Under the pieces are notes generated by a model. That model worked only from the letters and a program-made list of their open reading frames with translations, was not told the DNA's origin and made no database searches. A stretch of 64,000 nt of DNA. Source: Monosiga brevicollis MX1. Its lineage: Eukaryota > Opisthokonta > Choanoflagellata > Craspedida > Salpingoecidae. Position numbers and translations under genes: made by a program. Below, one piece after another: positions 1-6,000 of the stretch. Position 1 is the stretch's first letter. The number at the start of each line of letters is the position of its first letter. The stretch spans positions 554,527 to 618,526 of the forward strand of contig NW_001865039.1 of assembly GCF_000002865.3 (NCBI RefSeq). Reading direction: 5' to 3'.

Positions 1-3000
1 TTGGGCCAAATTCGAGTCAAGCTTGAGTTGGGTATTCAGCGCGAGTGGATCTGTGGTCGTAGCAAAAGCCAAGACTAAGCCGCGAAGCTGACGGCCGAGG
101 CCTGAGCGAAAGCTCTCACTGTCAAATACCATTCGCACGACTGCTAGCTGATGCAAAACCTGCATGACGTCACAAGTGGGCGAGGCCAAGTCTTGAACGT
201 CGTCCAACACCACCAAAACCCCTGCCTTGCGACTTGCGGGACCATACTCCAAGCCTGACCCCATATCAAAGTGACGACGGATGTTCTGCCAAACGGCTTG
301 ACCAGTCAAGCGGCGCGTGCAACTCAAGTGAACGGCAGCTCGCTCGGCACCTGTCATATCTGTGAGCATGTCGCTGAGCGTCTCCAAAATTCGGGACTTG
401 GCCGAACCGCTGGGTCCACTCAGACCGACGTTGCGGCCGGCTCGCAAGCATAAGGCAGCCACGAACCGAATGGCCTCCACTTCTGGCGTTGCCACCAAGA
501 CCTCGTCTTGGTCGTGTTCTGCAATTGCCTTGCGAGTCGTGATGATGGGTTCGGTCGTCATGTGCGCAAAGGTGGTAATGCCGGCAGCAGAACCTGGTCG
601 TTGCTGCCAGATCGGCACTTCAGGTACGAAGCGCACGTCAAATTGAGCCAGACGCGAGCGCAGGAAGCGGTCTGCCTGTGCCAAAGGTTCCCAGTTTTCT
701 TCGCACTCACGATCAATACACAAAATTGTCGCCCAAACGAGAGCCACACCCAAGCACTCGTAAGCAATGTGTGAGCCCAGATCGCTGCCTAGCTCATCTT
801 GGACGACCCCAAACAAAGAAGTACTGAGGTCTCGCCAGGTCTCAAGGACGGAGGTGACGTTTAAAGCGTTGGGCACGGTAGTACGCAAAGCGGAAAAGGT
901 GTCACAGAATTCAGCTGCTATATTAGCTAGTTCCTCGAGGTTCACACCCACGACCCCATCAGAAGCCACTAGTGCCTCGAGGTCGCGAAGAACCTGAGAG
1001 CGACGACAATAGACACGCGATCCAAGCAGTGCAAGATCGGGCAGCTCGTCTCCGGTGACCGATGGCTCGTAGTCCAGCCAAATGACGCGTGCACACTCAT
1101 CCAAGCGTGCACTGCTGCCACACGGCAACACAATGCGCCGCTGGGTCTTCACTTGATACAGGCTATCGCGCATGGCAGGCGACAGCACGCCGAGCAACAC
1201 AACGATTTGCAAATGTGCCAGTTCCTCCTCTGGCTCAGCAGTCGGGTCACGCTCTTGGGCATCTGCGCTATCGCTGAACCGGTGCGTAAGCAGCGAGGCC
1301 CAAAGCGATTGGTCCAGGGTTTCACCCGCAAAGCCGTTGCCGGCAAAGGCAGAGGGCAACACAACCTGCACTTGCGTATGCAGGTGCAGACCCTGCAAAG
1401 CCGCACGCAACTGTTCGACCAGAGCCAGACCATCGCGTGCGCTGTTGGCGCGCACATGCGCTACTGGGTGAAGGTCAAGAAGCAAAGCCAGATGGCGCAG
1501 ATCCAGCGAATGAGGTGTCAGACTCGTTCGATCGCGATTCTCATACTGGCGTACAGCTGATAGAAAATGGCTAGCTTGCAGGTCAAGCTGAAACACATCG
1601 GCCAGCGCCTTGATATCCGCTTCTAGCGCGCGTCCATTGATGCTGGACGCATCACAATCCATGCCATCTGGGGCACCCAGGCTCACGCCATAGTGCTGTA
1701 CAGCTGCGCGCAACACAGCTCGATCCTCAGCCCTTGTTAAAGAACGCCCGTGTGTAAACCAGAAGCAGTGCAACATGAGCTCCTTGGCCTGTTCGCCTGA
1801 CTCACTACGCCAGGCACCATGCGTCAAAGCCGTTAATCTAGCAGCGTTGAACAGCTCGAACATGCGACGAAGCGCATGCTCAGTATTGCGCGACTCCATC
1901 GAAGAGAGCAACCGACGCAACTCCACAAGAGCAAGCCGAAGACCGGCATGCTGCGCACCACCAATCACAACGTGAGCACGGAGCAGCAGCGGCCAGTCTG
2001 AAGCCCCCGCATGGCCGTCCACAGGAGATAACGGACGGCAGCTGGCTCGCAACAGTGCGGGCACGTGAGTACTGGCCATGCTGGTGACGAGCAAGGGCAT
2101 GCCATCCAGCTGTACAGTCGAATCAAGGAGCTCAAACGACTTTTGCTTTGACTGCATGGCCCGCGTTGTGGCATCCAACAAGGCGGCAACATCAGGCATC
2201 AAATTGGCGGATAATTGGTCCATGTGTTTGACAAACACGGCGGCTGGGTACCGAGTGAGACCAGCCAGCGCGTGAGCAAATTGCTGACGTTCAGCATCAG
2301 CATGTGCCAGCAGTTTGACATGAGCTCGGCCTGTTAGAAGGGCCGTGAGCTGCACCAAGCGCTGGGCATCTTGGTCTGGCGTGTTGAGCAACAACGGGAA
2401 TGCTCCCAGCTGGTTCGTCCAAAGCAAGCGAACGGCATCGGCCTCTGTCTCAAGGTTCAAAAGCTGGATGGTATCGATGTCTTGCATGATATGGGCATAA
2501 ACCTCTCGCAGTGGGCCGCTGGCAAGATGGATTTCATCTGCGCTGACCAAATAACGCAAGCGATTTTCCACATAGGTCGCGTTCGCACGCTCCTGGCCCG
2601 GAAAGCACTCCAGGCGGCTGCGTAAGTAAGTGAGGGCAACCATGATGTTGTACAGTTTGTGCTCATCGGCCTTGGAGGTGGCGCCTGAAAGCAGCGTGGC
2701 GACTTCTTGAAGCTGGCGATCACGGGCTGCTCGCACTGCATCCACGGTATAGTGGCCCGTCAAGGCTTGCTCTTCCTCCTGAGAAGCTTGCAAGACGAGG
2801 AACACAAAGACGACTTGTGCTGCTCGATCATTGATCCAATTCATGGTAAAGTCAGTGCGAACGCGGCCTTCACGGTCAAGTGCCGATAGCTCTTCAACAC
2901 CGTCCTCGAGGAGCGAGAAGAGTTGGTGGCGAAGGGAGACGCGCATGGACCGATCAAGGCTGGCCAGAATGCGTGCCGCCGATCCCAAGATGGGCACGGG

Positions 3001-6000
3001 TACATCAAGGTCCCAGCGCTCGCCAAGAGTGCTGTAAACGGCACGAATCTCTGCAGTTCGACCCTGATATTCAAGCAACAACCGCCCAATTTCCGGATAC
3101 AGTTTGTGAATGCTTTTGTTAATGAGTTCGGGGTGACCCGCTTCGCAGTGCACCTAAGCATGTACCCACGGACATGAGTAAGGCGCGCAGCAAAAGCAAT
3201 TGAGTGTTGGCAAATAGGCAAGCACAAGCACACACACACACACACACACACACACACACACACACACACACACACACACACACACACACACACACACACA
3301 CACACACACACACACACACACACACACACACACACACACACACACACCTGCAGTAGATCGGCGCGCGACAAAAAGAAAAACCGTCCAAAAGTGTCGCGGC
3401 GCGAGTCCAGGTGAGCCATGACACCAGACGCCACTGTCAGGAGGCTCTTGTGGTAGTTTTGAAGCAGTTGCGAAATTCCTGCCACAAGCCACCGCAAAGG
3501 TTCAGCATTAGCTTGCACATGTGTGCCCCTACACTGACAGGCCTGCTTACCTGGGCGAAGGCAGAAGCTCAGCACTGCAGGATCGCGGCTGACGCTGAAG
3601 AGCAATGCACGCAGATCGTTGTGGACCTTGAGCAGCAGCGCTGCCTCCTTGGGCAGCTCGGAAATGAGAACGGACTTTTTCTCGCCCCAACTGAAATTGC
3701 TACCTTGTGAAGAATGCCGGTGACTCGCAACGGAACCCTAATGAAACAACAAGCGATAACAATGCGTGAAAATATTGCAAGGGCAGGCAAAAAAAAAAAA
3801 AAAAAAAAAAAAAAAAAGGCTGTCAAATACTTCGGTGGGTTCCTGCAAACGGTCCAACAAAAAGCGTGCACGCACCCTCGTCTTTCTGCGGGCCATGAGC
3901 TGAGCCACAGAGGATACAGCGCCCGCGCCCTGCTGGTCGCTGGGTTCGGTAGAAAAAACTTCCAAAAGTTGCAACCACAGCCGCTGCACACCGCTGAGCT
4001 CCAGCACAACTGTCTCAATATTCCGAAGCTTGGACTGAGTGTCTGAAATTTCACCTCGCAGCACTCGGGAGCCAGCGTCCTGACTGAGACCGGTGAGGAG
4101 CTGCTGGTGCTCCTTGATCATATTGAAGACGTCATTGAGACCCTCAACGAGGTAGATGGCCGAGGTGTGGGACAGCGCGCCTGAAGCAGCCGCATTAGCC
4201 CCGACATCTTCGGGCTTTAGGGCCAAGGACGTGGCCTCACCGGCATGGCGAACACCGGCAGTCCACGTGCGCATCCGGAAAACGCATGTCATCCAGCGCT
4301 CATCGTAAGACTTGAGGGTAACTTCAGACTTGAGATCGTCATGAGCAGTTTGAACAACCGTATTTACCAGATCGTGTCGATCCGCCGGTAACCAGGCCAC
4401 AAGTTGACGCAAAGGCCAGCTGCGCACGACAGCATCGTCGTGGATATCCTCATTACCTGTTTCTTGGAAAAGTCGCTTCCAATGCCTTGAACGGAGATGG
4501 TCCGAGTTGAGGCTCTCTAGAGCTGGAATGGCACTCTGCAAAGCCTGTAACGTCTCGGCCACGCCTTGTGTCACGTCCCAGCTGCGCGCAGGGGCCGGTA
4601 GCTCGTCTATCAGAGCCTGCTTCGCCTCCACTGTTTGTCGAAACTCACTCAGATCCACCTGTGTCCAAGCCATGTCCAAGTAAGGATCCAGCTCGCGAGC
4701 CACAAAATCTCGCAGTCCTGTGACCTCATCCAAGTGAATCAAGTGCTCCTCGACGGCATGAAGACGATCAAAATCAACAATGGAATAACCCGTCAGCTTT
4801 TGCAGCTGCGTGAGCTCGCGCGCCTCAGCCTCGAGCTGCTCCACGTGAGAGCTGTGCTCTGCGATCAGCTCGCGTGCCTCATCGGTGTTCGTGTGCCGCG
4901 AAAAGGCTGAACAGGATAGCAGGTTGTTGTATGCAGCATGTAATTTTTCCTCGAATTGTGCCAATTGTTCTTTGATGCGCTGGCCCTCTCGGGCAAAGCG
5001 TGGCGCAAGTGCCAGCTTAAGCTCATCCAAAACCTTGAGAATGGCGTTGAGCCGGGGACGTAAGGTTCGGTAGATTTCAGCCAGCTCAGTCGAGATGTGC
5101 AGGTCGTGCTCGCGCAACATTTCAAGGCTGCGGTGCAAGGGCCCAAGTTTGCCTTCAATCTCATCTTGCCGCGCTGCAACCTCGTGAAAAAAGGACAAAA
5201 TGCTCATGAAGGAAACGTCAAGATTGTGCTGCAAGTCTACAGTGCCGGCATGAGCCAAACTGAGGTGATTGCTCAGCCGCACAATGGTGCGCTCGGCCTT
5301 GTCCAAGACAAAGCGGCCAAACGTGAAGCGCCAGTTGGAGGCCCGAGCTCGTAAAGTGGACAGGAGCGGGAGCAGATCAAGGGAAAAGAAACCACAGTCA
5401 ATCGAATCTGAGGTGGCGTGCAGTTGCTCGGCTGCGGCCGAGAACACACGCAGGCAGGTAGCAATCTCCTCAAGCGTCGGAACGCGCATGTTCAGCTGGC
5501 TCTCACTGCCGTAGCGCGAAAGCTTGCCCGGTCGCGACGAAGGTGCCTCTGCTTCCTGTTGACCCTCAGACAAGGTGGCCAAGTCGTGGCGTCGACCAAA
5601 CAGGTTCGAGCCAAACTTGCGCGAGGTGTTGCGCGACTCTATCATTGGTACGTCCACCTATGCGTCATCAAGCCAAGACCGCGAGATCACATGATCAGGC
5701 CCAGAGCTGCAATATGAACCGTGTCGAAACGGGTATGCCAGCCGTGCGAGACCCTCGTCTTTGCGCAAAGCAAGGCAAACAATGACAAGCCGCACAGTCC
5801 ACACAACGTACTTTCTCCGCCAGTTGGCGCATGCCCTCGTTGCGGAGAATGGCGTCGCGGGAGCTCAGAAAATCGTGAAAAATTGCGCCCGGGTCCAAGT
5901 TGTAGAGACAGCGAAAAGGCTCAAATGCTGCCAATGCTGCCAGCGCAATAGCCGCCTGTGTGCCCGTCATCATCCAAGGCAAGTTGACAAGTAAATGCCC

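Follow-up and report, generated by a model that had tools for sequence, protein, structure and literature searches.

The locus and its gene model

In this paper we looked at a 64,000-nucleotide stretch of the Monosiga brevicollis MX1 genome (contig NW_001865039.1, forward-strand positions 554,527 to 618,526), called the window here, and at a dynein heavy chain gene that crosses its left edge. This gene, referred to below as the window gene, lies on the minus strand and runs from window position 10166 to -7637, passing the left edge by about 7.6 kb. Its analysis points to an intact, protein-coding heavy chain in which AAA1 and AAA2 can no longer be recognised.

The gene model was built by eye and with a small gene finder, using the adjoining 20 kb of the same contig. 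It has 21 exons and 5,031 codons with a single terminal stop and no internal stop; all of the introns (20/20) are GT-AG and their phases are consistent. The gene finder was trained partly on the window gene and is therefore not independent of the hand model. At its first setting it over-splits the gene; at a higher intron penalty it gives the same structure except that exon 13 gains an intron and exon 17 shows a shift of six bases, and at a still higher penalty exon 20 is dropped and the start of exon 21 is moved. The part of the gene that lies in the window, its first 10,166 bases, holds the first 2,900 codons in 11 exons (window coordinates, all on the minus strand; E-values are expectation values):

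9259..10166, minus: exon 1, start ATG at 10166; first part of the tail (DHC_N1), Pfam DHC_N1 3.2e-7
7234..9049, minus: exon 2, tail core; Pfam DHC_N1 1.4e-42, best PDB sequence match an outer-arm dynein beta heavy chain (5.9e-30)
6936..7098, minus: exon 3, tail; set by GT-AG and phase
6592..6797, minus: exon 4, tail; set by GT-AG and phase
6382..6498, minus: exon 5, tail; set by GT-AG and phase
6149..6241, minus: exon 6, tail; acceptor picked to hold the phase, the least certain exon edge
5812..5955, minus: exon 7, tail; set by GT-AG and phase
3876..5657, minus: exon 8, end of the tail and most of the linker; Pfam DHC_N2 9.2e-29
3551..3737, minus: exon 9, linker; from the gene model
3348..3478, minus: exon 10, linker; contains the linker motif RRDTFGRFFFLSRADLLQ
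3229..3347, minus: GT/CA dinucleotide run of 59.5 perfect copies, in intron 10
1..3153, minus: exon 11, end of the linker, the AAA1 and AAA2 positions and most of AAA3; continues to L010:9753

A first-pass annotation, made from the letters of the window alone, had described positions 1 to 3153 as one long open exon and had counted about 2,900 open codons. The former is borne out: the minus strand is open there over 1,051 codons, and a further 82 codons in frame beyond the left edge bring exon 11 to ~1,133 codons. The latter figure is the sum of 11 exons and not one exon, and the whole gene has 5,031 codons. The dinucleotide run takes up 119 of intron 10's 194 bases and begins right at the donor site.

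Domains of the window gene

Four Pfam families were found above cut-off in the predicted protein, namely DHC_N1 (1.4e-42), DHC_N2 (9.2e-29), AAA_7 (2.3e-8) and AAA_8 (2.9e-6), with the tail (DHC_N1) followed by the linker (DHC_N2) as in dyneins, so that the tail is genuine, as are the linker and AAA3 named in the first-pass annotation. MT (17.2 bits against a cut-off of 24 bits) and AAA_9 (10.9 bits) were seen below cut-off. We also built our own profiles, using seven ordinary heavy chains from this genome, or three in the case of the tail. They matched the tail (2.9e-25 and 1.7e-20), the linker as far as residue 2023 (6.2e-30 and 4.1e-24), AAA3 from residue 2728 onward (1.7e-14) and, beyond the left edge of the window, AAA4 (7.3e-6, its Walker A motif lost) and the first part of the stalk (5.8e-10, residues 3384-3576). 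The extension past the left edge, which the annotation had proposed, thus brought in AAA4 and the stalk. These matches follow the dynein order with a gap exactly at AAA1 and AAA2, for which the profiles gave no match, and none of four shuffled control proteins matched the profiles below an E-value of 10. A phmmer search of the PDB sequences with the AAA1-AAA3 piece gave nothing at E <= 0.01. The microtubule-binding helix retains the invariant PP and W, and the window gene is not among the reported matches of a genome search with Pfam MT.

The AAA1-AAA2 region and the nucleotide sites

The region where AAA1 and AAA2 should lie was aligned by hhalign with a probability of 0.18%, like that of the controls (0.09 when shuffled, 0.30 when reversed). 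When its profile scores were compared with those of 60 shuffles, AAA1 reached z = 1.95 (4/60 shuffles scored as high) and AAA2 z = -0.16 (32/60). In a second degenerate heavy chain of the genome, gene2, the same tests gave 99.1% and z values of 16 and 29, which indicates that the tests have power. The distance from the linker motif to the AAA3 P-loop is 926 residues, compared with 860-947 in the six of seven ordinary chains in which the motif was matched, and such normal spacing argues that two domain-sized stretches are still present. The earlier statement that both domains conform to the dynein pattern therefore holds for position and spacing, but the sequence does not support it.

The nucleotide-binding sites were read with two patterns. 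A scan of all 5,031 residues with [GA]xxxx[GAS]K[STQ] gave a sole string, GPSGSAKS at AAA3. A wider Walker A pattern, which also admits R as needed for many ordinary AAA4 sites, added GSYLDARQ at residue 397 in the tail and GSLLMARS at residue 4003 in the AAA5 region. Neither pattern gives a Walker-A-like string at AAA1, AAA2 or AAA4 of the window gene, while the wider one gives the motif at all of AAA1-4 in 7/7 ordinary chains read. The P-loop loss that had been reported for AAA1 and AAA2 is thus confirmed. When the protein is aligned by MAFFT with ordinary dyneins of this genome, the sites fall as follows:

2365..2394, minus: LLLNTPDQDA, ~27 residues before the AAA1 slot, aligned with a 'TPLTDR' stretch
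2284..2313, minus: approximate AAA1 Walker A slot, LLAHADAERQ; motif lost, alignment without statistical support
2212..2238, minus: AAA1 Walker B slot, VFVKHMDQL; acidic pair lost, pairs with CFDEFNRI
1429..1458, minus: approximate AAA2 Walker A slot, HVRANSARDG; motif lost, register uncertain
394..417, minus: AAA3 Walker A, GPSGSAKS; the last G of GxxGxGKS is A
190..219, minus: AAA3 Walker B, VLVVLDDVQD; acidic pair kept
46..69, minus: AAA3 sensor I stretch, AFATTTDP, from the alignment with ordinary dyneins

The string LLLNTPDQDA, which had been taken for the AAA1 site, belongs upstream of it, with the slot lying near LLAHADAERQ; VFVKHMDQL was assigned correctly to the Walker B slot. Because the alignment of AAA1 and AAA2 is statistically unsupported the slot positions are approximate, and the absence of the motifs does not depend on them. 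At AAA3 the string GPSGSAKS is present as stated, yet it is not a perfect GxxGxGKS. The AAA3 motif of C15, a DNAH10-type chain of the same genome, departs at the same last glycine (GEAGTSKT), so that nucleotide binding at AAA3 of the window gene may still be possible.

It could be argued that an error in the assembly or in the gene model conceals a normal AAA1-AAA2 pair, considering that the exon edges were set by eye and with a gene finder partly trained on this very gene. However, AAA1 and AAA2 fall inside one uninterrupted exon with normal spacing. Moreover, AAA_6, the Pfam family of AAA1, was searched in the genome contigs (39.5 Mb, 57 contigs) with the best candidates alone scored, and among these no match was reported on the contig of the window. 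We regard such an error as extremely unlikely. For the same reasons, one exon from the end of the linker to AAA3 and no reported AAA_6 match on the contig, it is unlikely that AAA1 is supplied by another exon.

Coding state of the gene

All seven segments of the gene show coding-type codon-position composition, the AAA1-AAA2 segment included, where the guanine plus cytosine (GC) content at positions 1/2/3 is 0.67/0.45/0.59, compared with an overall GC of 0.50 in the introns. In the AAA1-AAA2 stretch of 704 codons the other two frames contain 19 and 33 stops; the chance of its being open by base composition alone is ~1e-11, and for the whole frame the chance is ~1e-78. It is well supported, as far as coding potential can tell, that the window gene is an intact protein-coding pseudo-motor and not a decayed pseudogene, in agreement with what had been proposed from the window alone.

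One rival to this view is that the gene is a duplicate dynein that is slowly decaying and has no function of its own, a 'ghost gene', a view that Braschi et al. 2022 (PMC8754002) report of DNHD1. The loss of the AAA1, AAA2 and AAA4 motifs, the weak AAA5-6 and a third-position GC below that of pieces of three ordinary paralogues (values are given below) would all fit such a fate. Against it stand the 5,031 open codons, the 20 in-phase GT-AG introns and the very small chance of the whole frame being open, as well as the existence in the genome of further degenerate heavy chains whose open frames are long. In addition, variants of human DNHD1 itself accompany flagellar defects (PMC9916431). We therefore consider slow decay very unlikely.

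Affinities of the window gene

The best PDB match of the tail is the outer-arm beta heavy chain 7kzm_B (5.9e-30). For the linker two 'putative' heavy chains come first (2.9e-20 and 6.4e-18), followed by DNAH9 and DNAH17; some protein names in these match tables are plainly wrong. The name DNHD1 is absent from the PDB matches listed for the tail, linker and AAA4-stalk pieces. Among the genome's own chains, C46, which is of DNAH17/DNAH9 type, comes closest to the linker (1.8e-24) and C15 to the AAA3-stalk part (1.8e-23). The tail resembles that of C46 from the extreme N-terminus, with residues 1-362 matching residues 14-369 of C46 (E 4.8e-13) and residues 476-964 matching more weakly (6e-4), at an identity of ~20-25%. 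DNAH9/17 and DNAH10 work in two-headed arms, and DNAH1 in a single-headed arm. As the matches are to DNAH9/17- and DNAH10-type chains, the window gene probably derives from an axonemal dynein of the two-headed kind. Compared with the outer-arm beta heavy chain (DNAH9/DNAH17; PDB 7kzm_B, 8j07_n9 and 9fqr_I4), the tail, the linker and the order of the domains are alike; what differs is that the window gene has no recognisable AAA1 or AAA2 and that Walker A is lost in AAA1, AAA2 and AAA4.

Another option is that the product is a regulatory head and not a free-standing linker. It would form a heterodimer with an ordinary heavy chain, be inactive itself and tune its partner in spacing, load or nucleotide sensing at AAA3. 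The tail likeness to C46 from its first residues would suit a partner of this kind, and AAA3, which is a regulatory site in ordinary dyneins, is the one nucleotide site that is partly kept. However, at ~20-25% tail identity the dimer interface may not be conserved, and no partner is known. We hold this option to be rather unlikely, though it ranks second after a static linker or scaffold.

Two trees were calculated, one of the linker (14 sequences, gene3 and gene4 excluded) and one of the AAA3-stalk part (9 sequences), with no DNHD1 in either. In the linker tree the window gene and gene2 pair with support values of 55.4/41, with C46 beside them without support, and in the AAA3-stalk tree they pair with 88.6/85. 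Both genes sit on very long branches of ~2 substitutions per site, and since long branches attract each other the pairing is not trusted. By pairwise comparison the two are similar around the linker only (22%), and each of them matches ordinary dyneins better. Going by these trees, the window gene and gene2 may share an origin, but their pairing may also be an artefact.

Other dynein heavy chains in the genome

The AAA_6 search gave 12 gene loci with strong matches, all on other contigs, and the P-loops were read in seven of these. With AAA_8, 14 loci were found, which are the same 12 together with the window gene and gene2. By sequence criteria the genome is one with at least four degenerate heavy chains, the window gene included. 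The models of the other three (gene2 to gene4) are automatic and their exon edges are unchecked.

Gene2 lies on the same contig as the window (C56:1463739-1484818, minus strand); its model has 5,174 residues and breaks into three pieces at a harsher intron penalty. In pairwise comparison it matches the DNAH10-type paralogue C15 best. Like the window gene it lacks the AAA1 and AAA4 motifs and keeps a stalk, but unlike the window gene it keeps AAA2 (GEPGVGKS), and its AAA3 reads GPYGCGKS. Gene3 (C40:782352-795680) was located by weak DHC_N2 and MT matches, both below cut-off; its model of 3,233 residues contains no Walker-A-like string and has a stalk (2.2e-23). Gene4 (C56:3426500-3436000) was located by an MT match at C56:3431743. 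Its microtubule-binding domain is well kept (stalk 2.5e-29 with our own profile, Pfam MT 3.6e-11), and the string GPAQTGRA, which precedes the stalk, looks like a weakened P-loop of AAA4. The gene4 model does not include the start and, by eye, runs on into a transporter-like gene; in the genome profile searches no DHC_N1, DHC_N2, AAA_6, AAA_7 or AAA_8 match was reported near it.

The AAA sites that were lost differ between these chains, being 1, 2 and 4 in the window gene and 1 and 4 in gene2. The part that is common to all four, as found with our own profiles, is the stalk, and it seems that the stalk is what selection preserves. A multi-AAA protein at C49:1084487-1087364, which matches the dynein AAA families weakly, was rejected as a dynein; its P-loops are intact and by eye it is midasin-like.

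One of these chains could be the counterpart of animal DNHD1, and the window gene may be the ortholog with the same role as in sperm, a reading that is compatible with the others. Here DNHD1 was compared by description only. Both are dynein-derived and of ~5,000 residues (4,753 for DNHD1; PMC9916431), both stand outside the ordinary classes, and DNHD1 is tied to sperm flagellar integrity (PMC9916431 and PMC8754002), the latter of which classes it as an 'orphan' heavy chain and calls it a ghost gene that is perhaps becoming a pseudogene. On the other side, at least three other chains of this genome are candidates for the same orthology, and we find it possible, if rather doubtful, that the window gene is the one. 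DNHD1 and choanoflagellates were not found together among the open-access matches listed.

Other features of the window

The window has a GC content of ~55%. Besides the heavy chain, an open frame at 13889-15502 encodes rhodanese and dual-specificity phosphatase domains (Pfam) and is MAP-kinase-phosphatase-like by the order of its domains. Sushi repeats occur in both of two long open frames at 56612-62198, and the second frame has a C-type lectin domain as well (Pfam); the two frames possibly belong to one large extracellular protein. Two tandem arrays were seen, one of 10.7 copies of a 15-mer at 23693-23852 (97% matches) and one of 55 copies of the 6-mer AGACAC at 42509-42843 (79% matches).

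A probable structural role for a motor-dead dynein

In ordinary dyneins the linker swings and the stalk changes its affinity in a cycle that is powered by ATP hydrolysis at AAA1. With AAA1 lost, the product of the window gene would have no ATP-driven power stroke and would not step. The mechanism that fits our data best, and that we hold with moderate confidence, is that the product is a static linker or scaffold in the flagellum, a motor-dead descendant of an axonemal dynein; that the gene may be kept for a structural role of some kind is a fair inference. In such a mechanism the tail would either anchor the protein to a microtubule or join it to a second heavy chain, and the ring, which ATP bound to AAA3 perhaps stabilises, would serve as an immobile spacer. 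Provided that it can still bind, the stalk would contact the adjacent microtubule but go through no stepping cycle, and the protein would act as a passive cross-link or scaffold and not as a motor.

Several of our own results weigh against this explanation. The second part of the stalk is poorly matched by our profiles (0.98), and for this reason microtubule binding may have been lost; AAA5 is barely recognised (0.0067) and AAA6 is not clear (0.15). Third-position GC is 0.59-0.64, compared with 0.69-0.78 in tail-linker pieces of three ordinary dyneins, and second-position GC is 0.40-0.48 compared with 0.33-0.37 in the same pieces, a combination that fits weaker constraint. The best PDB match of the AAA4-stalk piece is the single-headed DNAH1 (1.4e-12), with an outer-arm beta chain second (1.3e-11), so that the two-headed origin is not uniform along the protein. 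AlphaFold models of two pieces from the window, made without relatives, were useless (mean predicted local distance difference test, pLDDT, of 35.6 and 38.2).

A more specific hypothesis is that the degenerate heavy chains, at least four in number, are proteins of the bridge between doublets 5 and 6, where they would dock at outer-arm sites on doublet 5, clamp doublet 6 and fix the beat plane, with animal DNHD1 in the same set. In sea urchin the outer part of this bridge (o-SUB5-6) takes the place of the outer arms on doublet 5 and links the two doublets with a 24-nm repeat like that of the outer arms, and its proteins were unidentified as of 2012 (PMC3468612). According to PMC9671500, o-SUB5-6 is also present in the choanoflagellate S. 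rosetta, again in place of the outer arms on doublet 5. PMC3468612 also speaks against the hypothesis: it sees no sign that o-SUB5-6 is a modified outer arm, outer-arm antibodies leave o-SUB5-6 unlabelled, there is no evidence of axonemal dyneins making the links, and o-SUB5-6 appears as a large density and not as thin stalks. The loss of DNHD1 in men leads to broad flagellar disorganisation, including a missing central pair (few sections, one patient; PMC9916431), and such a phenotype, not limited to the bridge, counts against it as well. The main text of a 2025 mammalian axoneme atlas (PMC11779644) does not mention DNHD1, and among the open-access papers searched one, PMC11506864, contains both DNHD1 and '5-6 bridge', in passages that do not connect them. 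There is no direct link between o-SUB5-6 and the window gene, and we consider the bridge hypothesis quite improbable. If it is true, the axoneme would have gained its rigid bridge by disabling its own motor.

Divergent orphan heavy chains were already known; what seems to be new, as judged from sequence, is that a single unicellular holozoan has at least four degenerate chains whose patterns of loss differ. Among the open-access titles and abstract beginnings listed there was no report of such a set, and the census of Kollmar (2016) may contain these genes. The finding of an intact pseudo-motor of 5,031 codons and at least three more degenerate chains, in a genome where 12 others match AAA1 strongly, suggests that dyneins with a dead motor can be a stable and repeated outcome with a job to do. 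These chains are named candidates for doublet-specific bridges, such as those whose proteins were unidentified in 2012, and the differences in their dead AAA sites may serve as natural tests of what in a dynein is of use when it does not step.

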